Part shown: in pieces, positions 4,502 to 15,413 of the stretch | Position numbering within the stretch: the stretch's first letter is position 1 | How the letters are laid out: the number at the start of each line of letters is the position of its first letter | Assembly: GCA_902555185.1 (NCBI GenBank) | Contig: CACDSA010000001.1 | Span: forward strand, 47,313-111,312 | DNA length: 64,000 nucleotides | Reading direction: 5' to 3' | Source: an uncultured Pelagibacteraceae bacterium | GTDB lineage: Bacteria > Pseudomonadota > Alphaproteobacteria > Pelagibacterales > Pelagibacteraceae | Translations under genes and position numbers: made by a program | The notes under the pieces: generated by a model | Database searches by the model: none | Seen by the model: only the letters and a program-made list of their open reading frames with translations | What the model was told of the DNA's origin: nothing

Positions 4502-5298
4502 AATCAAAAATAGTTCTTGCCTTTAATAAATGTAAAAAACTGAGAAGACCTGCCTTAATTACTTACACAGTTGCTGGAGATAACACTAAAAATAATTCTC
4601 TCAAAATTTTAAATAAAATATCTAAATACGCAGATATTCTTGAGCTTGGATTTCCGCATAATACACCCATAGCTGATGGTGGGCAAATACAAGGTAGTTC
4701 ACACCGAGCTTTAAAAAATGGAATAAAATTAAAAGATGTTTTTCAAATTGTTAAAAAATTTAAAAAAAATAATCCTGATAAACCTATTATTTTAATGGGA
4801 TATTTTAATTTAATCTATCAAAACGGTGAAGATAACTTTTTAAAAAGTTGTAAAATATCAGGAGTGGATGGATTAATTATAGTTGATCTTCCATACCCTG
4901 AAAATAAAAATTTCGCTAATAAGTGCAAAAGAAAATCAATAAATTTCATACAACTTTTATCCCCAACTACGTCTAAAGATAGAATGAAAAAAATTATCAA
5001 AGACTCACACGATATGATTTACTACATATCAATGTTATCAACTACTGGGGGGAAATTAAAAGTTTCACCAAAAAAAATTATTCAAAACTATAATGCAATA
5101 AAAAAAATCAATCCTAAAAAAAACCTTGTGATTGGATTCGGAATTACTGATAAAACTATTTCCTCCTTAAAATCAGCAAATGGACTAGTTTTAGGAAGTT
5201 ATCTATGTAAAACAATAACAAATTCACTCAAAATGAGACAAAATCCTGTCACAAAGTTAGATCAAGTAATGTATAATCTGAAGAAAAAAATTTTATGA
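4498..5298 (+). CDS. trpA: Tryptophan synthase alpha chain (divergent)
   Basis: ITYTVAGD, LELGFP, IADG, LMGYFNLIYQNG, GVDGLIIVDLPYPE, VIGFGI; overlaps trpB stop (ATGA). Confidence 0.85.
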   Translation: MKSKIVLAFNKCKKLRRPALITYTVAGDNTKNNSLKILNKISKYADILELGFPHNTPIADGGQIQGSSHRALKNGIKLKDVFQIVKKFKKNNPDKPIILMGYFNLIYQNGEDNFLKSCKISGVDGLIIVDLPYPENKNFANKCKRKSINFIQLLSPTTSKDRMKKIIKDSHDMIYYISMLSTTGGKLKVSPKKIIQNYNAIKKINPKKNLVIGFGITDKTISSLKSANGLVLGSYLCKTITNSLKMRQNPVTKLDQVMYNLKKKIL

Positions 5299-6209
5299 AT
5301 TGGATAACAAAATTTATTAAACCTAAAATAAAATCCCTTTTTGAAAAAAAATCTTCTAAAGTTGAGGAGAATCTTTGGACTACATGTAGCTGTAAAAACT
5401 TAATTTACAAGGAGGATATGTATACAAATCTTATGGTTTGTCCAAAATGTGGGGCACATCATAAATTGACCTGCATGGATAGGTTTAATATTTTTTTTGA
5501 TAATAAAAACTTTGAAATAATTGAAACGCCTCTTCCTAAAGATGATCCTTTAGGATTTGAAGATAAAAAAAAATATACTGAGCGTTTAAAAACTGCAAGA
5601 AAGCTAACCGGACAAGATGATGCTGTATTAATTGCAGTGGGTAGAGTTCAAGGACTAGATGTAATTGTTGGCGCTCAAGATTTCAGATTTATTGGAGGCT
5701 CTCTAGGTGCAGCAAGTGGTGAAGCATTTATAGCGGGAGCACAAAAGGCTTTGGAAAAAAATATCCCTTATATTTTTTTTAGTAGCTCTGGTGGAGCTCG
5801 TATGATGGAGTCAATGATAAGCTTGTCACAAATGAGTCGAACTTCACTGGCAGTACATGAACTAAGAAAAAAAAATATTCCATTCGTCTCTGTATGTTGT
5901 ATGCCAACAACAGGTGGAGTTACAGCCAGCTATGCTATGCTAGGTGACTTTATAATTTCGGAACCAGGTGCAACTATTGGTTTTGCGGGTCGCAGAGTTA
6001 TTCAAGATACAGTAAGAGAAACTTTACCAGACGATTTTCAAACCTCAGAATGGGCTCGAGATGTAGGACAAATAGATTTGGTAGTTGAGAGACAATATTT
6101 AAATTCAACTATTTCTACTTTACTAAAAGTTTTATTGAAAAAGGCAGAAGCTCAATCTAAACAAGAGTCTAATGTCACAATCGATAAATCTATACAAACA
6201 GCTAGCTAA
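5295..6209 (+). CDS. accD: Acetyl-CoA carboxylase carboxyltransferase beta subunit
   Basis: VCPKCGAHH zinc-finger remnant, SSSGGARMMES, PTTGGVTASYAMLGD, EPGATIGFAG. Confidence 0.92.
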   Translation: MNWITKFIKPKIKSLFEKKSSKVEENLWTTCSCKNLIYKEDMYTNLMVCPKCGAHHKLTCMDRFNIFFDNKNFEIIETPLPKDDPLGFEDKKKYTERLKTARKLTGQDDAVLIAVGRVQGLDVIVGAQDFRFIGGSLGAASGEAFIAGAQKALEKNIPYIFFSSSGGARMMESMISLSQMSRTSLAVHELRKKNIPFVSVCCMPTTGGVTASYAMLGDFIISEPGATIGFAGRRVIQDTVRETLPDDFQTSEWARDVGQIDLVVERQYLNSTISTLLKVLLKKAEAQSKQESNVTIDKSIQTAS

Positions 6210-7434
6210 TCATAAGCTTTTTAATAAATCTGTAATTTTTGGCCTTAAGAGAATAAAGCAAGCGCTTAATTTGTTAGGACATCCAGAAAGAAAACTTAAA
6301 AATGTAATTTCGGTCATAGGTGAGTCAGGAAAATTTTCCACATTATTTACTTTGAAGTCATTTATTGAAGCAAATAATCAAAAAGTGACTGCTCATATTT
6401 CCCCTTCACTGCGAGACATAAGTGAAAGATTTTACATGGGTAATAAATACTTGACCCATTCAGAAATTAAAAAAACTATAAAGCAGATAGAAAAATTAAA
6501 TATTCCTCTAACAGTTTTTGAGTGTCTTACGTTGGTTTACGTTATTAATGCTTCAAAAATAAACGCCGATTACAATATACAAGAAACTGGAGCTCTCTGG
6601 AGGTTAGACTCAAATAATATCAATGACTTTCCGAAAATTCAGATTTGTACAAATATCAATAAACAACATTTAAATTTTTTAAAAAGAAAAACTTTAGATG
6701 AAGTAATTAAAGAAGATGTGGGGTTTCTAAGTAATTTTACAAATATTTATATAGGTAAACAATCACCATATGTTTTAAGAAAAATTAAGATGCAATTAAA
6801 AAATAATACAAGTAAAATTATTTACCCAAGCTCTTGGAAATTAATTAAAAAAGGTAAACAGTATTACTATCAAGATAGAAAATTTAAAATAAAGCTTAAT
6901 ACCAAAAATGTTCATTCTAAAGGAATGTTTGAAAATGTTTGTCTAGCCATTAAGGTAGCTCTTGATCTTAATATAGATAAGAGAACTATTCAAAAGGCCT
7001 TACCTTTGCTCTCTTTTGAGGGACGTTTTCAATACCTTAGTAAAGGCAAAATTAAAAATAAACTGAATAGAAATGAAATCATCATGATTGACGGCGCACA
7101 TGCTATTGCTGATGCACGAAACCTTGCAAAATATTTAAAAAATATAAAAATTCCTAAATATGGAATTTGGGCTATGACTAAAAACAAAGACCCAGATTTA
7201 TTTATCAAAAAACTGAAAGGAGCATTTAAAAAAATTGTTACGATGCCCATCGAAAATGAGTTCAACTCTGTCTCGGCAAATGAACTTTATAAAGTAGCAG
7301 TTAAAAATAAATTACTAGTAGAAAAAAGTAATAATTTCACAGAAGCATTAAAAAAAATAAGTAGTAAAGAAAAAAAACTAATTGTTTGTTTTGGTAGCCT
7401 TTATAACTGTGGAAATATTTTAAATAAAAATTAA
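6172..7434 (+). CDS. folC: Bifunctional folylpolyglutamate/dihydrofolate synthase-like protein (divergent)
   Basis: Position after accD; GESGKFST in place of GTNGKGS, ETGALWRLDSNN in place of EVGLGGRLDATN, DGAHAIADARNL in place of DGAHNP. Confidence 0.7.
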   Translation: MSQSINLYKQLANHKLFNKSVIFGLKRIKQALNLLGHPERKLKNVISVIGESGKFSTLFTLKSFIEANNQKVTAHISPSLRDISERFYMGNKYLTHSEIKKTIKQIEKLNIPLTVFECLTLVYVINASKINADYNIQETGALWRLDSNNINDFPKIQICTNINKQHLNFLKRKTLDEVIKEDVGFLSNFTNIYIGKQSPYVLRKIKMQLKNNTSKIIYPSSWKLIKKGKQYYYQDRKFKIKLNTKNVHSKGMFENVCLAIKVALDLNIDKRTIQKALPLLSFEGRFQYLSKGKIKNKLNRNEIIMIDGAHAIADARNLAKYLKNIKIPKYGIWAMTKNKDPDLFIKKLKGAFKKIVTMPIENEFNSVSANELYKVAVKNKLLVEKSNNFTEALKKISSKEKKLIVCFGSLYNCGNILNKN

Positions 7435-7748
7435 ATATGAGGTTTAATAAATTCTAGCATATCTTTTTCGCTTGAAGCACCAACTTTCGTTCCTAAAAGT
7501 TTTCCCTCTTTAAATAAAAGAATTGTTGGCACACCTCTCACTGAATATTTAGTTGGCTCATTAGGCTGACTTTCAATGTCATGATAATAACAATCAATTT
7601 TATCTGACATGTCATTTGAAATTTTTTCTATTATCGGTTTAAGCTGCTGACATGGCGAACACCATGAAGCTGAAAATTGTATCAATGAAAGTTTGCTCCC
7701 ACCTATTTGATCACCAAATTTTTCGTCAGTAGAATCTTTAAATGCCAT
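7431..7748 (-). CDS. trxA: Thioredoxin
   Basis: FSASWCSPCQQLKPIIE active site, VRGVPTILLFKEGK. Confidence 0.92.
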   Translation of the reverse strand: MAFKDSTDEKFGDQIGGSKLSLIQFSASWCSPCQQLKPIIEKISNDMSDKIDCYYHDIESQPNEPTKYSVRGVPTILLFKEGKLLGTKVGASSEKDMLEFIKPHI

Positions 7749-7782
7749 AACCTTTAAATAAGTGTTTTTGAATTTTTGTCAA

Positions 7783-9204
7783 CTACGCAGATGAATAAAA
7801 TTTTTCTAAATCTTCAACGTACGCGTTAATATCATCTAATATTTTTAGTTTTTCTGGTTGGTTTTCTTTTTCAAATTTGGCTCTTAAAGTGTCTATCTCT
7901 GAATAAGTTCTAGGTATTGTATTCCAGTTTTCATTATTAGTGCTTAAAAGTTTTTTTGAGATGTCTTTATGAATTAAATTAAAGTCAGATTTAGATAAAA
8001 TCTCAGGTTTTTCCATGTAAAGAAGTTTTTTTCCAAAGTATTGTAACCTCTCATCTTTAAATTTAGAGATAACCTGAAGTTTTTTATTCCAATCAACACT
8101 ATGAAACTCTGGCATTATCTTATTATCCTCTATTGAGGTAAATTTAACGTAAATACTTTCCTCATTGTATAAATCCTCTTGTGATTTTGTTTGTTCTTTT
8201 TCATCAATTTCAGATCGTTTAACTGAAGTGATTTTTTCCGCAAAACCTTTGTTATCTTTTATCATTTTAGCTCTTTCCTCTAATTTTTTTATTCCAATAA
8301 GTTTGTACTCATCAAATTGATTTCCATACGAAGGATTCATGATAACTGGATGTTTATTGTGTCTAACAGTTCTAATAAATTTTGGCTGCTTTTTCATCGC
8401 TGCGGTTAATTCTGATATTGGCATGTCTAAATAAGGAGAAGGATCATGTCTTAAATCAAAACATAATGGCCATTGATATTGAGGATGCTGACAAATAAAT
8501 GTTTGAACATATGGTCTGCTTCTTCCATAAAAATATTCATTCGTACAAAAAAGTAATTCTTTTTTTATTAGCTCTAAAGACTGATTTTTATCCATAGTTA
8601 ACATGCTTGCTTTCCAAACATTTGGAGCTTTTTTTGAAATTAATTTTGCTATTCCAATAGTTGCTATCACATCGCCAATTGCGCTATGTGCATCTCCATG
8701 TTCAATTCCGTTCAAAGGTGCCATTTGATCTAATTTGTAAACATCATTTCCTTTTTCATTTACAGAATTTTTAAGTGTATTTGGGTAATATAAGTTAGCG
8801 GCTCTTGCTAAACTTAAGATGTCTCCTCTAGTATTTCCGTTTGTGCTAGTAATGTAAGGATATTCCAATGTTTGAAATAAAGTGCACCTTAAAAATTCCT
8901 CATCAAACTCAATACTATTGAACCCAATATAAGTAGCCTTGCCCCATCTTTTAAGTGTTTCAACAAACTGCCTAATCATTTCATAATGAGAGAGGTTGGA
9001 TTTTTTAAGCATCGAGGGTGAGGTCTTATTCACGATTAGCGCCATGGCTTCTGGAATTATTCCAGGACTTAATCTACACCTAGCATCAAAACGATCTAGT
9101 TCATCTAAATTGTCATTAGTTAATACAGCACCAATTTGAATTATTTGGCCCCAATACTTGTTAGATGAACTGGTCTCAAAATCGTAAAAGACAAAGTTAG
9201 ACAT
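7783..9204 (-). CDS. sbcB: Exodeoxyribonuclease I
   Basis: FVFYDFETSS exonuclease motif, GFNSIEFDEEFLR, HGDAHSAIGDVIATI; ExoI-like length and C-terminus. Confidence 0.9.
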   Translation of the reverse strand: MSNFVFYDFETSSSNKYWGQIIQIGAVLTNDNLDELDRFDARCRLSPGIIPEAMALIVNKTSPSMLKKSNLSHYEMIRQFVETLKRWGKATYIGFNSIEFDEEFLRCTLFQTLEYPYITSTNGNTRGDILSLARAANLYYPNTLKNSVNEKGNDVYKLDQMAPLNGIEHGDAHSAIGDVIATIGIAKLISKKAPNVWKASMLTMDKNQSLELIKKELLFCTNEYFYGRSRPYVQTFICQHPQYQWPLCFDLRHDPSPYLDMPISELTAAMKKQPKFIRTVRHNKHPVIMNPSYGNQFDEYKLIGIKKLEERAKMIKDNKGFAEKITSVKRSEIDEKEQTKSQEDLYNEESIYVKFTSIEDNKIMPEFHSVDWNKKLQVISKFKDERLQYFGKKLLYMEKPEILSKSDFNLIHKDISKKLLSTNNENWNTIPRTYSEIDTLRAKFEKENQPEKLKILDDINAYVEDLEKFYSSA

Positions 9205-9213
9205 AATTTATGT

Positions 9214-10242
9214 TTACTTGAGAACTTTTATCTTTTCTGGATTTTCTTTCAAGGAGTCTGTTACTTGTTCTGGATCTTTTATATTTCCAAGCGTATTCAT
9301 TATAGATCTAGCATCTCTTCCAAAACCGTCGGTTGCAGTCATTGCTTGCTCTAATTTCTTTCTTAAGTCTTTAATCCCGTCAAAATGTTTTTCAAATCTA
9401 GAGCTTATATTTCTTAAATCACTATAGATTTGAGTTGCATGTTGTTGAACTTTTAGTGTTTGAAATCCTAAATGATAAGATTGCAACAAAGCAGATAAAG
9501 TATTAGGACCTGACACTGTAACTTTATATTTTGTTCTAAGCTCTTGTAATAATAGTTCTTTTGTTTTTGGGTCTCTGTAACTGGAAAGTTCTGCAAACAA
9601 ACCTTCTGTGGGCACATACACTATTGCAAAGTCTGTACTTTTTGGTGGGGCAATATATTTTGAGTTCACTGTTTTTGCTTTTAGTCTAAAAGCAGCAGCT
9701 AAATCTTTCCTAGCCTCAGCTTGAGCCTCTTTATCATTTGCGTTATAGGCATCATCAATAGCTTTATATTTTTCAACTGGCCAGTGACTATCGATAGGTA
9801 AAAGAACATCCTGAAGTCTAATAGCAAATTCAACTGTCTCTGAGGTATCATCTTTCATTTTTGCATTAGCGATAAATTGAGAAGCTGGTAATAAATCTTT
9901 TAAAAGAGCTCCTAATCCAAATTCAGCAAGAGTACCGTAACTCTTCACTCCGCTCAAAATTCGAGTAAAATTATCTTGGCTTTTATTTAATTCAGAAACT
10001 TGTTGATTAAATACAGATACTTTTTCATCTACTCGCGTTAAAGCCCCGGTCATATCTTTAGCAACTTCTTTGCTCATATTGCTAAAAGACTGACTAAAAG
10101 TCTCTTTTAGGCCACCTATATCCTCTTTAATTTTTAATAATTCATTATCATCTTCCTTTTTCGGTTGGCTTTTTAATTTTAAGAAAAATAAAATATTTAC
10201 CCCTAATAAAATAACTACTAAAACTAAAACAATTATATCCAT
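9214..10242 (-). CDS. rmuC: DNA recombination protein RmuC
   Basis: N-terminal TM, coiled coil, LLPIDSHWPVEKY, DFAIVYVPTEGLFAEL. Confidence 0.9.
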   Translation of the reverse strand: MDIIVLVLVVILLGVNILFFLKLKSQPKKEDDNELLKIKEDIGGLKETFSQSFSNMSKEVAKDMTGALTRVDEKVSVFNQQVSELNKSQDNFTRILSGVKSYGTLAEFGLGALLKDLLPASQFIANAKMKDDTSETVEFAIRLQDVLLPIDSHWPVEKYKAIDDAYNANDKEAQAEARKDLAAAFRLKAKTVNSKYIAPPKSTDFAIVYVPTEGLFAELSSYRDPKTKELLLQELRTKYKVTVSGPNTLSALLQSYHLGFQTLKVQQHATQIYSDLRNISSRFEKHFDGIKDLRKKLEQAMTATDGFGRDARSIMNTLGNIKDPEQVTDSLKENPEKIKVLK

Positions 10243-10243
10243 A

Positions 10244-10549
10244 TTACCCTTCGTATTTTTTTAATTCTGCTTCAAGAACTTCTATTTCTTTTAAAATTTT
10301 ACGACAATTAAATACACCAATCATATATCTTAAATATCTTAAGACATCAGTAGGTAAATTTAAAAGACTAACAAGAATAAAAAGTATTTTTTTATCTCTA
10401 TAGAACTCTTTCTGCACTTTGTTGTGAAAATTAATACTTCTAAGGTATGCATTGGTATCGTTTAAGTAATCTTTAGCGTATTCAAGTCTATTTTGTAAAA
10501 TATAATAAAAATGATCTTTATACATTCTCCTCATCTTAAATTGCTCCAT
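10244..10549 (-). CDS. Small hypothetical protein at the 3' end of the Vsr/MORC operon
   Basis: 101 aa ORF overlapping the vsr-like ORF by 14 nt; no recognised family. Confidence 0.6.
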   Translation of the reverse strand: MEQFKMRRMYKDHFYYILQNRLEYAKDYLNDTNAYLRSINFHNKVQKEFYRDKKILFILVSLLNLPTDVLRYLRYMIGVFNCRKILKEIEVLEAELKKYEG

Positions 10550-10904
10550 TAATGATTCGCTCTAGATTTTTAAAAGTTTGTGCTTTAGCTTTTTCATCAT
10601 TAAGCACACATTCCCAAATATTTATAATCTTATATCCTAAAGCTTTTAACTTTTTAGTATTTTCGTAATCTCTGGCTTTATTTTTTTCAAATACACTTAA
10701 CCAATAATTAGTATTTTTTTCAGGAATTCTTGAATGAACACATCCATGATTGTGCCAAAAACATCCATGAATATTAATTATTAGATTATAATCCTTATAG
10801 TAAAAATCAGCTTTATAAGGCAAGTCTTTGACTTGATAAGTATAATTAATTAATTGTTTGTCCAAAAATTCTTTAAATATTTTTTCAGGATTGCTTATTT
10901 TCAT
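10536..10904 (-). CDS. Vsr-like very-short-patch-repair-fold endonuclease
   Basis: LPYKADFYYKDYNLIINIHGCFWHNHGC...NTNYWLSVFEKNKARDYENTKKLKALGYKIINIWECVL matches the Vsr signature (D, HGCFWH.H.C, W..KF..N..RD, W.CE). Confidence 0.9.
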   Translation of the reverse strand: MKISNPEKIFKEFLDKQLINYTYQVKDLPYKADFYYKDYNLIINIHGCFWHNHGCVHSRIPEKNTNYWLSVFEKNKARDYENTKKLKALGYKIINIWECVLNDEKAKAQTFKNLERIINGAI

Positions 10905-11590
10905 TAATTTCGGACTGGCTTAGGCCTTTGCTCCTTAATGTAATTTATTTCTGTTTTAAATTTATTTTTAAAAACTTCTTGAGATTCTATTAGTAATTTT
11001 AGCTGCTTATCATTGATTCCGTTTCTATCCCCAATAATAATATTCTTTCTTTTTTCTTTTTTCATTTCTTCTTTTAATTGCTTTAACCAAGTATCTACCT
11101 GACTTATTTTTTCAATGAGATCGGGGTATGTAACTGAATTTGAAATTTTCCAGAATCGACTAACATCGTCAAAATCTAAATCATCTATACTATTATTTTG
11201 TAATATAGTTTTTGTAATTTTATTTTCTAAAAATTCTTTTAATTTGTTTGTTTCTTGTCTTCCTAAATTTATTTTAAATTTTTTGTTATCTTTTTCTCCT
11301 TGATTTAAATTATTTTCTACATGACTTATCCCTGTGCTGCTAATTTTATATTGTTTTTCTCCAATTTTTTTTATGTAACCATTTTTTATCAAGGCAGCGT
11401 TCTGGCCCATGACAAATGTATAAACTTTATTTGAATTAGGATGATTCTTATAACCTGCCAAACAAAAATCTTCGGGGAATTCCTGCCAACTTTTTACAGC
11501 TAAATCTTCAGCTGAAAAAACTTCCTTGTCTTGCAGCATTCTGTATGCTGATATTAAAGCTTTATCAGATTGTGATATTTTAATTTTCAT
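10904..11590 (-). CDS. Hypothetical protein with winged-helix-like N-terminus, Vsr/MORC system component
   Basis: 228 aa; N-terminal segment (SAEDLAVKSWQEFPEDF...ALIKNGYIKKIGEKQYKISSTG) resembles a winged helix; overlaps both neighbours. Confidence 0.65.
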   Translation of the reverse strand: MKIKISQSDKALISAYRMLQDKEVFSAEDLAVKSWQEFPEDFCLAGYKNHPNSNKVYTFVMGQNAALIKNGYIKKIGEKQYKISSTGISHVENNLNQGEKDNKKFKINLGRQETNKLKEFLENKITKTILQNNSIDDLDFDDVSRFWKISNSVTYPDLIEKISQVDTWLKQLKEEMKKEKRKNIIIGDRNGINDKQLKLLIESQEVFKNKFKTEINYIKEQRPKPVRN

Positions 11591-13967
11591 CTCTTTTTGT
11601 AAAATCTATGCTTAAAATCTTTTCCATATGTGGCTTCATCAATTGATCAAAATCAACTAGTTGGTTATCAATAAAAGCTAAATACTCTGCAACAGAAGCT
11701 GGTGGTGTTTCATTATTCTTTATGTTTACTCTTGCTAATATTTCTAGCCAATTCATAAGCATATACATTTTAAATTCTTTTGATTTTTCTCCTGCCTGGT
11801 AGTTTTTGCTTAATCCTTTTCTTTTATAAATTTTTGATGCAATCGCAGTTTGTAAATTAATCCACCAAATACCTTTCTCAACATCTTGTAATCTTTGATA
11901 AATCTTTGGATTTTTTTCTTTAAGATAAAAAGGTTTATCAGACCCTTCGATTAAAGGATCGGCATCAATGCCACTTATTAAAACTTTTGGAAAACCACCT
12001 CCTTTTCCTTTTTTTTTATCACTTTTGATAACATCTATTTTCAAATCGTCGCTTTCACAATCATTTGTCATACATTTTATTTTTGTTTCTCCTAAATTTA
12101 ATCCATAAATTTGACCTATACTTGATGTTGCAACTATATCGTTGTCATCAGCTATACATAATAGATAACATCCATTTATTTGTTTACCTGTGTTGTCAAT
12201 TATTTTAGGCATCAAATTTAATTTTGATCCTTCCGGTAGTTTTAATAGTTTTTTTGATAAGGAAATTTTTGAGATTTGAATGACATTTAACTGTACTGTA
12301 TTGGATGAAATTTTTGTTTTTAAATCTTTAGAGGTAACTTTAATTTTAACTGTTCCAGGATTTTTAGAAAATAAGAGATTTAAGGATTTTTCATGTTCTT
12401 CAATTATATTTTCATCAGATATTTCAAAATTTATTGCTGGGTTATTTACTTCATTTTCTTTAACCTGATTCTCTAAACCTTTTTTGTTATAAGATTTAAT
12501 ATTTGGTCTAAAAGTTACTCCTAATCCGCAATAGTCATATGTGAGATTGAGTACAATTTGTTCAACTTTATTTGACTTCTCAGATTTAGGTTTTTTTCTT
12601 CCACCTTCACCACCCGTGCCCTTTCCCGAAACTCCACCTTTGTAAAAATTTTTTATAAAGTTATTTTTTGAGAATAAATCTTCAAGATTTTTATTGAATT
12701 TATTAATTTCTTCTTGAGCTTTTTTTTCCATTGCATCCTGTGCCGATTTATCATGTTCTTGTGCAATTTTATCAAGATGTTCACCTATAAAGCTTTGAAT
12801 AGCTCTAATTTCTTTGCTATCAGAAAATTCTTGCCTTGTTACAGAAGCGTATTTCCATAGTTCATCGTAAAAAAATTCTCCGTATAAATGTTTTGGAAAT
12901 GCACTATATTGAGATGTGCAGTTTCTTGGATGTATGTAACCATAATATTTTTGAATACCTTCTGAAGACTTTCCTCTAAATTTAAATCTATCTTTAAATC
13001 TCGAATTAGACATATCTAATTCGCAAGATTTTATTAGTAAATATTTTTCTTTAGAATTTTTAAGTGAAACCATTTCTTTGGTTGTTCTATCGTATAATTC
13101 ATCAGGTATTGGAATCTTTTTTGGTTCAATGAAATCCTTATGCGGCTTTATAACTTCAGGTTTATGCTCATATATATTGTTAATTTTTTCTTTTATATGT
13201 TCGCCTTCTGAGTAAACATGAAGATCTAATTTTTCTAAAGGTTCTAGTGACTCAGTGTCTCTTAAAAGAGCTTCTAAAAGTTCAGATCTTTTAATATTTT
13301 TTTGGAAACCCTCTGGGTTTTTTCCAATAAAAAAGGTAAAATTCCCATTGTTTTTTTTTAGTTTTGCTTGAGCTGCTTTTGGTAAATCAGAAAATTTAAC
13401 ATTAAATTGTTTTAAAAATTTCTCTAATTTGTTTTTAATTGGATTAGTAACATTTTCTTCATTTTTCATCCACCAACTATTATTTTTTATATCTTTTGTG
13501 GTAACATAGCTTGAAACATAACCGCCCTCATTAAATTTGTTATTAAAGCAACTATGCCACATTCCACTATCAAATAATTTAATCGCATAAATTTTACCTC
13601 CATTTCCATGACCTCCCCAAACATCTTCTTTTTTTACTGTGCTATCTATTGCAGCATTTTGATCATTTAGTTTTTTCATGGTGATCATCCGCTTTCTAGT
13701 CATACCAACAAAATCCAGTAAACCAATTAAACTTGGTGAATTTTTTGTTTTATTTTTAAGTAAAAGAATTACTTCTTTTCCTTCATCCATTTTATTTTCT
13801 CTTATTAGAGCTGAGCCAGAATTTTTAATCAATTCTCTAATTCCTTCGTGGTGGTCATGAAGATTTTGTATTAATAATAAAACTGTTCCCTCGTAAGAAA
13901 TATCTTTTGTTAGGGTGTAGTCTGATTTATTTATGTTATTTCCAGGATTAATATTTATAGTTTCCAT
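11580..13967 (-). CDS. GHKL (HSP90/MutL/MORC-like) ATPase with internal Big_2-like Ig domains
   Basis: N box IRELIKNSGSAL, G1 box LLDFVGMTRK (DxGM), G2 box WGGHGNGGKIYAIKLF. Later ISLSKKLLKLPEGSKLNLMPKI...DNDIVATSSIGQIYGLNLGETKIKCMTND resembles bacterial Ig-like group 2. Confidence 0.85.
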   Translation of the reverse strand: METININPGNNINKSDYTLTKDISYEGTVLLLIQNLHDHHEGIRELIKNSGSALIRENKMDEGKEVILLLKNKTKNSPSLIGLLDFVGMTRKRMITMKKLNDQNAAIDSTVKKEDVWGGHGNGGKIYAIKLFDSGMWHSCFNNKFNEGGYVSSYVTTKDIKNNSWWMKNEENVTNPIKNKLEKFLKQFNVKFSDLPKAAQAKLKKNNGNFTFFIGKNPEGFQKNIKRSELLEALLRDTESLEPLEKLDLHVYSEGEHIKEKINNIYEHKPEVIKPHKDFIEPKKIPIPDELYDRTTKEMVSLKNSKEKYLLIKSCELDMSNSRFKDRFKFRGKSSEGIQKYYGYIHPRNCTSQYSAFPKHLYGEFFYDELWKYASVTRQEFSDSKEIRAIQSFIGEHLDKIAQEHDKSAQDAMEKKAQEEINKFNKNLEDLFSKNNFIKNFYKGGVSGKGTGGEGGRKKPKSEKSNKVEQIVLNLTYDYCGLGVTFRPNIKSYNKKGLENQVKENEVNNPAINFEISDENIIEEHEKSLNLLFSKNPGTVKIKVTSKDLKTKISSNTVQLNVIQISKISLSKKLLKLPEGSKLNLMPKIIDNTGKQINGCYLLCIADDNDIVATSSIGQIYGLNLGETKIKCMTNDCESDDLKIDVIKSDKKKGKGGGFPKVLISGIDADPLIEGSDKPFYLKEKNPKIYQRLQDVEKGIWWINLQTAIASKIYKRKGLSKNYQAGEKSKEFKMYMLMNWLEILARVNIKNNETPPASVAEYLAFIDNQLVDFDQLMKPHMEKILSIDFTKRDEN

Positions 13968-14194
13968 GTTTTTTTCTTTTTGCTTTCTTGTGCATTAAGC
14001 TTAGATTTAATTAAGTTTAATTCCTCAGATATATCGTTTAAAATTTTCTTAAATTCACTGCTGTCATAGCTGTAATTGTTTTTATTTGTCATATTCCCAA
14101 CCAATCTGAGATGTTTAAGAACATTGTTGACCCTGATAGGAGCCAAATCTGTAAATCTTTTTCTTTTATTAACATTCTTCTTTTTTTCTTCCAT
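13955..14194 (-). CDS. Small basic protein, first gene of the Vsr/MORC operon
   Basis: 79 aa, KRFTDLAPIRVNNVLKHLRLVGNMTNKNNYSYDSSEFKKILNDI; overlaps ATPase ORF by 13 nt. Confidence 0.6.
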   Translation of the reverse strand: MEEKKKNVNKRKRFTDLAPIRVNNVLKHLRLVGNMTNKNNYSYDSSEFKKILNDISEELNLIKSKLNAQESKKKKTWKL

Positions 14195-14207
14195 TTCTTC
14201 CTTTCTT

Positions 14208-14250
14208 AGGCTAACTAATATCGAAAGGAGTAATACATACTAGTTAGCCT
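14208..14250. repeat. Inverted repeat AGGCTAACTA...TAGTTAGCCT in the divergent promoter region
   Basis: Perfect 10-bp arms at 14208-14217 and 14241-14250. Confidence 0.8.
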
Positions 14251-14314
14251 TTAATTGCTTAAGCTATGAACAACTTAAAATTAGTAAAAAAAACCAAAAA
14301 TTACCAATTTATGC

Positions 14315-14345
14315 TGTATTTTACAAATGTATCTTGTAATATACA
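14315..14345. promoter_or_regulatory. Operator-like inverted repeat TGTATTTTACAA-N7-TTGTAATATACA
   Basis: 12-bp arms with one mismatch, 7-nt spacer, between the ATPase-operon start and the methyltransferase start. Confidence 0.6.
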
Positions 14346-14405
14346 AATAATCTTTGTTGTTCACATAGCCCTTATATAGTAATATATGGCGAAGTCAACA
14401 AAAAA

Positions 14406-15413
14406 ATGAAGAAAAATAAAAAAAAATTTCTTAAGCCTAAAAAGCCTAATGGGGGCATTATTTACAATGAAAATTCATATGATTTAATAAGAGAGAAGAG
14501 TTTTCTAAAGAAATATGAGGGTAAGATAAACTTAATATTAACCTCGCCTCCATTTGCGCTAAATAATCAAAAAAGTTACGGTAATCATGAAGGGAATTCT
14601 AGACCCAACGCTTCAAATGAAAAAGGCGGTGCTAAATCTTATATTAAATGGTTTTCAAACTATGCAGAGCCATTAGCCAAACTCTTAACTAAAGATGGTT
14701 CAATAGTTGTTGAACTTGGCAATTCTTGGACGCAGGGCGAACCCACTATGTCTCTAACTAGTTACGAGGCTTTAAAAACTTTTATGGAAAAAGGTAAGCT
14801 AAAACTTTGTCAAGAATTCATTTGGAACAATACTGCTAAACTTCCTGGACCCGCACAATGGGTAACAAAAAAAAGATTAAGAGCTAAAGACTCGTTCACG
14901 AAGATATGGTGGTTTTCAAAAACTGCTTACCCTAAAGCTGATAATAGAAAAGTATTAGTTCCATATAGTAAAGGAATGGAAAAACTTTTAAGAAAGCAAA
15001 AATATAATGCTGGTAAAAGGTCATCAGGTCATAGAATTAATGCTGAGAGTTTTTTAAGTAGAAATAATGGTGCTATTCCCCCGAATGTATTAAATGAAAA
15101 ATTTTTATACAAGAGTTTACCAAGCGTAATTGAGGTATCTAATACTCAAACCACCAAATATGCAATATATTGTAAAAACGAGAAAATAAAAACACATGAT
15201 GCTAGAATGCCATTACATATAGTAAGTTTCTTTGTAGATTTCCTTACAGACGAGGGAGATACAGTTCTAGATCCTTTTGCAGGATCAAATACAACTGGTT
15301 ATGTATCTTCATTAAAAAAAAGGAAATGGATTTCTATAGAACTAGATAGAGAATATATAAAAGGCAGTTTAGGTTGGTTTAAAAGTAAAAGGTATTTTTC
15401 ACAATTTAAGTAA
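14406..15413 (+). CDS. Beta-class DNA methyltransferase (N4-cytosine or N6-adenine)
   Basis: Motif IV TSPPF near the N-terminus, motif I-type VLDPFAGSNTTGY near the C-terminus (order IV-TRD-I = beta class); SPPF favours N4C. Confidence 0.88.
   Translation: MKKNKKKFLKPKKPNGGIIYNENSYDLIREKSFLKKYEGKINLILTSPPFALNNQKSYGNHEGNSRPNASNEKGGAKSYIKWFSNYAEPLAKLLTKDGSIVVELGNSWTQGEPTMSLTSYEALKTFMEKGKLKLCQEFIWNNTAKLPGPAQWVTKKRLRAKDSFTKIWWFSKTAYPKADNRKVLVPYSKGMEKLLRKQKYNAGKRSSGHRINAESFLSRNNGAIPPNVLNEKFLYKSLPSVIEVSNTQTTKYAIYCKNEKIKTHDARMPLHIVSFFVDFLTDEGDTVLDPFAGSNTTGYVSSLKKRKWISIELDREYIKGSLGWFKSKRYFSQFK

Follow-up and report, generated by a model that had tools for sequence, protein, structure and literature searches.

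Genes and site of the inserted cassette

The window, that is, the whole stretch of 64,000 nucleotides analyzed here from an uncultured Pelagibacteraceae bacterium, carries an inserted cassette of 5.2 kb between rmuC and an ADP-ribosylglycohydrolase gene (Table 1), two genes that lie 10-44 bp apart in eight congeners. Five genes of the cassette are encoded on the minus strand and overlap by 1-14 bp, their order being that of a 79-aa protein, a GHKL ATPase with Ig-like domains, a 228-aa protein, a Vsr-type nuclease, and a 101-aa ORF. A DNA methyltransferase gene diverges from them at a distance of 211 bp. The rmuC/ADP-ribosylglycohydrolase spot is an insertion hotspot (loci L089, L090, and L091) holding other defense-type genes in two further genomes, namely an AAA ATPase with HerA/NurA-like genes in G018, and a C5 methyltransferase with a 215-aa putative restriction gene in G023. 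The last ORF of the operon is also weakly similar to a 105-aa ORF that G023 carries beside exonuclease-like and RmuC-like genes.

Table 1. Positions in the window of the cassette, its genes, and the domains of the GHKL ATPase.
Feature	Position	Strand	Basis or remark
Inserted cassette, rmuC to ADP-ribosylglycohydrolase gene	10243..15398	.	Empty sites in eight relatives
101-aa ORF, last in overlapping operon	10244..10549	-	Overlaps vsr by 14 bp
Vsr-type endonuclease, 122 aa, short N-terminus	10536..10904	-	Pfam and E. coli Vsr structures
228-aa protein, probable winged-helix N-terminal half	10904..11590	-	Homologues and weak structure match
GHKL ATPase with Ig tandem, 795 aa	11580..13967	-	Invariant motifs, Foldseek matches
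C-terminal domain (residues 658-795)	11583..11996	-	Presumed partner-binding tail, putative function
Ig-like domain 2, Big_2-type (residues 565-648)	12024..12275	-	phrog_341, Pfam in L029/L030, PDB matches
Ig-like domain 1 (residues 466-564)	12276..12572	-	AlphaFold model and 7z47 profile match
Long helix and low-complexity linker (residues 384-465)	12573..12818	-	AlphaFold model
Middle S5/transducer-like domain (residues 226-383)	12819..13292	-	Foldseek; approximate boundaries, no sequence motif
GHKL (Bergerat) ATP-binding domain (residues 23-225)	13293..13901	-	Invariant motifs and fold matches
79-aa small partner	13955..14194	-	Motif RVN..K..L.G(N)..N..NYSY
DNA methyltransferase, M.PvuII-like (N4-cytosine)	14406..15413	+	Pfam, structure, motif

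The first-pass annotation regarded the partner genes of the ATPase as DNA-acting, in agreement with the methyltransferase and the Vsr-type nuclease of the cassette. The former matches N6_N4_Mtase (E=3e-31) and, along nearly its full length, M.PvuII (1boo, E=5e-59), contains a TSPPF motif, and is 43% identical to its counterpart from Ensifer. The latter scores 42.4 bits with the Pfam Vsr model (cut-off 27), aligns with E. coli Vsr structures at E=4e-20, and retains the D and HGCFWHxHxC motifs, its score of 83.8 with NCBIfam TIGR00632 being below the cut-off of 97.85. Vsr is classically devoted to repair after 5-methylcytosine deamination. Since a search of the host genome, which is 78% complete, detected no C5 methyltransferase, this usual mismatch-repair job has no visible substrate here. 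The 228-aa protein gave a weak match to the structure of a metal-dependent regulator (E=0.006). In PADLOC-DB only the Vsr-type protein and the methyltransferase match a model, the GHKL, 228-aa, and 79-aa proteins matching none.

The Ig-like tandem within the GHKL ATPase

Searches with the GHKL protein of the window alone against Pfam, NCBIfam, PADLOC, and PDB produced nothing informative, and no relative was detected among the genome contigs of an 85,462-species collection. Its first relative is encoded on an Ensifer adhaerens plasmid (20% identity across the full length), and a profile of these two sequences retrieved six further homologues on viral contigs, identities of the window protein to its relatives ranging from 17 to 26%. 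A match in G172 (E=3e-4) was set aside as a short piece with in-frame stops. The N-box, DxxG, and GxGxGGK-type motifs that characterize the GHKL superfamily are all found in the window protein, and the corresponding E45..K48N49, D85F..G88, and GHGNGGK (119-125) are invariant in the alignment of seven homologues. In agreement with this, Foldseek matches the full-length AlphaFold model to MORC3/4, MORC2, SMCHD1, TopoII, and Hsp90, with MORC and TopoII ATPase alignments of ~300-330 columns, a length that fits the N-terminal half. This half is followed in the model by a helix (residues 385-434) and a low-confidence linker, and, at the other end of the protein, the C-terminal domain keeps its P..L and W-(I/L)-N motifs in all homologues, including one from a viral contig (L031) that has no Ig-like domains. 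Domain edges are approximate due to the 17-26% identity and the low confidence of the model. The first-pass annotation saw no signal peptide, and we concur, because the N-terminus lacks any hydrophobic stretch (maximum 19-residue Kyte-Doolittle mean of 0.51 within the first 40 residues); no membrane segment was seen in the protein either.

Tandem bacterial Ig-like segments had been proposed from the sequence for positions 12030-12571 of the minus strand, equivalent to residues 466-646 of the ATPase, and homologue Big_2 scores, profile-PDB comparison, and Foldseek together confirm that this region consists of two bacterial Ig-like domains. Modules of the Big_2 kind usually belong to the surface of cells or to phage particles. 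The window protein alone stays below the curated cut-off of Pfam Big_2 (PF02368; 22.8 bits) and has no significant Pfam match, its best one being a NUP210 Ig domain at a non-significant E=0.2, and for this reason Big_2 was evaluated through its relatives. Two full-length homologues, L029 and L030, each 26% identical to the window protein, exceed the cut-off (28.0 bits, E=2e-6, and 29.5 bits, E=7e-7, respectively), and in the family alignment these matches fall on the second Ig-like domain of the window protein. Thus, the Big_2 pattern earlier read in the second block holds at that position in the two homologues, but the window protein taken alone does not reach the threshold. Its residues 557-648 additionally match phrog_341, a major tail protein family (E=3e-5). 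By sequence, the Big_2 label applies to Ig2 only; Ig1, undetected by Pfam, is assigned as Ig-like from its predicted secondary structure and from the match to PDB entry 7z47.

Profiles built on the family converge on the same region. When the seven-sequence profile was run against 399 genomes it recovered, besides the query, five places in three genomes, all confined to Ig columns 494-629, and both of the translated proteins among them display tandem Ig-like repeats. Against PDB, the Ig region matches Ig-like chains only (best E 9e-6), and the match to 7z47 covers both domains (E 1e-4). The full-length AlphaFold model is weak (mean pLDDT 57), with nearly all of residues 470-646 in beta conformation; Ig1 appears as all-beta with pLDDT mostly of 70-86, and Ig2 ranges between 39 and 77. 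With this model, the top Foldseek match in PDB is the part of LigA that holds tandem Ig-like domains (8gyr, E 1.8e-9, 191 columns), at a low TM-score by target of 0.41, such low values being expected for a tandem that sits in a weak model, and BIG2 and tail proteins are the matches in a viral library. The Ig slice modeled alone was poor (49.5) and had no significant structural match. No S5- or transducer-like fold, an outcome that would have spoken against the original proposal, appears in the Ig region, the MORC/TopoII/Hsp90-like part lying upstream of it. The fold is claimed because sequence profiles and model agree, as the model by itself would be insufficient.

The Ig block also behaves as a module. 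L031 lacks it cleanly and conserves the ATPase, middle, and C-terminal domains, suggesting that it can be acquired or dropped in one piece. Where two homologues are moderately diverged, the Ig domains and the remaining parts of the protein evolve at similar rates, with identities of 55% and 56% versus 58%, 56%, and 57% for the L029-L030 pair, and of 41% and 49% versus 49%, 53%, and 62% for the pair formed by the Ensifer protein and L033. Net charges are +1 for Ig1 and 0 for Ig2, compared with +11 for the ATPase domain. L029 and L030 versus L031 constitute a natural with/without pair in which the role of Ig-like domains inside a cytoplasmic defense motor might be addressed.

Relatives of the operon and the small partner

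Genes for the GHKL protein, the 228-aa protein, and the methyltransferase occur together in the window, in Ensifer, and in five viral contigs. A 228-aa homologue adjoins the GHKL gene in all seven loci with full context, and a search with nothing but the 228-aa profile brought up these five viral contigs and no others. The nucleases around this core vary. In Ensifer and L029, the neighborhood of the GHKL-Ig operon (L003:3884-6867 and L029:9015-12839) encodes a McrB-like AAA_5 protein, split over two ORFs in L029, and a protein of 410-416 aa whose VVEVK motif is PD-(D/E)xK-like. In L031 (positions 5144-9620) the Ig-less GHKL homologue is followed by a C5 methyltransferase-Vsr fusion, and no recognized nuclease adjoins the operon in L030.

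The window, the Ensifer operon (32% identity), and L032-L034 each encode the 79-aa partner, which was not seen beside L029, L030, or L031. Its profile was found in 10 of the 399 genomes, in 15 plasmid records, and in six viral contigs, and the family has no Pfam entry and no PADLOC match. In 22 of the 26 loci examined, the partner gene is immediately followed by an ORF of 250 aa or longer, and 19 of these 22 ORFs contain an N-box-like or GHGNGGK motif. The GHKL-type ORFs group into four clusters that share no sequence similarity with one another, with one more ORF left unassigned. HMM-HMM comparison of the window family with the three other clusters was not significant (probability about 0.3-2%), nor was that of the three among themselves (up to 5%), and the four are consequently not claimed as one family. 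The assignment of those three clusters to GHKL proteins is putative, since it derives from N-box-like motifs, accompanied in two of them by weak Pfam HATPase matches. Many of the partner loci adjoin methyltransferase, Vsr, or type II restriction genes.

Considered on its own, this family of ~75 aa (RVN..K.I.LIGNLSN..Y) is encoded directly upstream of at least four dissimilar GHKL-type ATPase families, its hosts belonging to Proteobacteria, Bacillota, Actinomycetota, and Deinococcota (window; L014-L028, L040-L047). On the plasmids L040, L041, L042, L043, and L045 the 75-aa partner and its GHKL-type ORF recur with two gene sets, either a ~280-aa protein plus DUF6339, or an ATP-binding protein plus a UvrD-like helicase, often adjoining dcm, vsr, and type II restriction genes. 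Being recurrent and having neither Pfam nor PADLOC match, the ~75-aa partner could help to find GHKL defense systems that have escaped annotation. Tentatively, and as a possibility we would not yet favor, these loci might represent an undescribed and widespread class of methyltransferase-linked defense, in which the ~75-aa partner works with at least four GHKL families and with interchangeable nucleases, the tandem Big_2 arm of the window branch coupling an ATP-driven clamp to the effector.

Possible role of the tandem and relation to known systems

The cassette probably destroys foreign DNA. The interpretation we prefer, to which we grant about an even chance, sees the Ig tandem as one module of a GHKL ATPase that resembles MORC/paraMORC proteins and works in a restriction-modification-type defense cassette; the tandem would act as a spacer or docking arm. 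In such a mechanism the PvuII-like methyltransferase would mark host DNA with N4-methylcytosine, and unmodified DNA would be read by the winged-helix-like protein together with the 79-aa partner. The GHKL protein would then dimerize on ATP and clamp DNA in the manner of MORC, MutL, and topoisomerase II, its C-terminal domain being kept off the clamp by the two Ig domains, which would serve as rigid spacer or docking arm. The C-terminal domain might recruit or license the nuclease, which would be Vsr in the window cassette and the McrB-like motor with the PD-(D/E)xK-like protein in some relatives. Among the functions initially suggested for the tandem (binding of phage structural proteins, binding of DNA, or rigid spacing), the last fits best, because L031 lacks the block and keeps the other domains, and DNA binding is disfavored by charge. 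The spacer role is argued from modularity, rate, and charge in a small set of homologues, and the block may serve a purpose beyond spacing, given that the Ig-less L031 also has a different methyltransferase.

An alternative is that the tandem senses the invader, binding a foreign protein, such as a structural protein of a phage, and thereby triggering ATPase and nuclease. The closest Ig matches are indeed phage BIG2 and tail proteins, Ig-Ig contacts are conceivable since BIG2 domains occur in many tail and capsid proteins of phages, and the Ig-like domains of BREX PglZ and DndH have been proposed to recognize invaders (PMC12839542, PMC10853773). Nonetheless, such similarity may merely reflect the abundance of BIG2 in phages, L031 manages without the block, and the Ig region is not clearly faster-evolving than the ATPase, unlike the PglZ and DndH domains, which makes a hypervariable phage sensor less likely; overall, we regard sensing as unlikely. 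Direct binding of the tandem to DNA, through the sugar-phosphate backbone or modified bases, might instead help the clamp to find or hold its substrate, as the neighbors are DNA-acting and backbone binding has been suggested for DndH beta-sandwich domains (PMC10853773). The near-zero net charge of both Ig domains, in comparison with the strongly positive ATPase domain, and the existence in the cassette of a separate winged-helix-like protein make this quite unlikely.

A different objection concerns the cassette as a whole, which might be a unit for DNA repair or modification maintenance, resembling very short patch repair, rather than for defense. Vsr and MutL-type ATPases cooperate in that pathway (PMC2292703), and the ATPase of the cassette is a GHKL protein. 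The methyltransferase is, on the contrary, of the m4C type in a host genome, 78% complete, where no C5 enzyme was found, the site is a hotspot that holds other defense-type genes, and a McrBC-like pair replaces Vsr in relatives, all of which renders a repair unit quite unlikely. Least credible is that the beta-rich segment has no true Ig fold and that its matches arise by chance from low-complexity AT-rich sequence. The missing Pfam Big_2 match of the window protein alone and the poor model of the Ig slice could be read in this way, but the scores of homologues exceed the Big_2 threshold at the corresponding position and independent profile and fold searches concur, so we consider a chance match extremely improbable.

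Returning to the preferred reading of the tandem as a spacer or docking arm, its individual elements have precedents: MORC/paraMORC ATPases in restriction-modification systems, Ig-like domains in cytoplasmic defense proteins, and a GHKL-nuclease anti-phage protein are already known. By contrast, the open-access papers searched described no Ig-like domains in GHKL defense ATPases, and neither a GHKL ATPase joined to a Big_2-type tandem nor the recurrent 75-aa partner was found in them. Regarding the methyltransferase, the system resembles PvuII, for which the match is nearly full-length, but no PvuII-type restriction enzyme was recognized in the cassette, Vsr and the GHKL complex taking its place. 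The m4C system of D. radiodurans is unrelated, as it uses a GIY-YIG enzyme (PMC10855626). VcSduA, a GHKL-type Shedu protein (PMC12137116), likewise couples a GHKL ATPase to a nuclease against phages, but its nuclease is fused (DUF4263, with no Pfam match in the window protein), whereas that of the window is separate. The paraMORC-related HEF_HK / Response_reg_2 pairs (PMC8011034) share with the cassette a HATPase and restriction-modification methyltransferase and Vsr neighbors; however, a Pfam search of the window proteins that admitted matches up to E=10 detected neither domain (PF19191 / PF19192).

With respect to the Ig-like domains, beta-sandwich domains of this kind are described in DndH, BREX PglZ, BREX-related DUF499 ATPases, and CoCoNuT McrC (PMC10853773, PMC12839542, PMC11090510), all of them cytoplasmic proteins of defense against DNA or RNA with Ig- or FnIII-like domains, which in DUF499 are also two in tandem. 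They are, nonetheless, different enzymes, and the PglZ and DndH domains are described as evolving fast, unlike those of the window. Concerning the ATPase, the nearest precedent is provided by the MORC/paraMORC GHKL ATPases of restriction-modification systems (Iyer et al. 2008, PMC2292703). The window protein differs from them in that the MORC S5 motif GhXhhpXXRhl is absent in all seven family sequences, as are the paraMORC2 ExxxH, the paraMORC5 HxH, and the conserved ExK nuclease tail of paraMORC3, and in that no TIR domain, a paraMORC4 feature, was seen by Pfam in it; moreover, its system has no adjoining SFII helicase and adds the Ig tandem and the small conserved partner. Shared with MORC and paraMORC1-5 are the GHKL plus S5-like ATPase encoded with a DNA methyltransferase and Vsr (PMC2292703), a scattered and laterally mobile distribution, and the presence of MORC structures among the best fold matches. 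What the window protein brings to the MORC/MutL-type restriction ATPases is a tandem of Ig-like domains that looks like a removable module.
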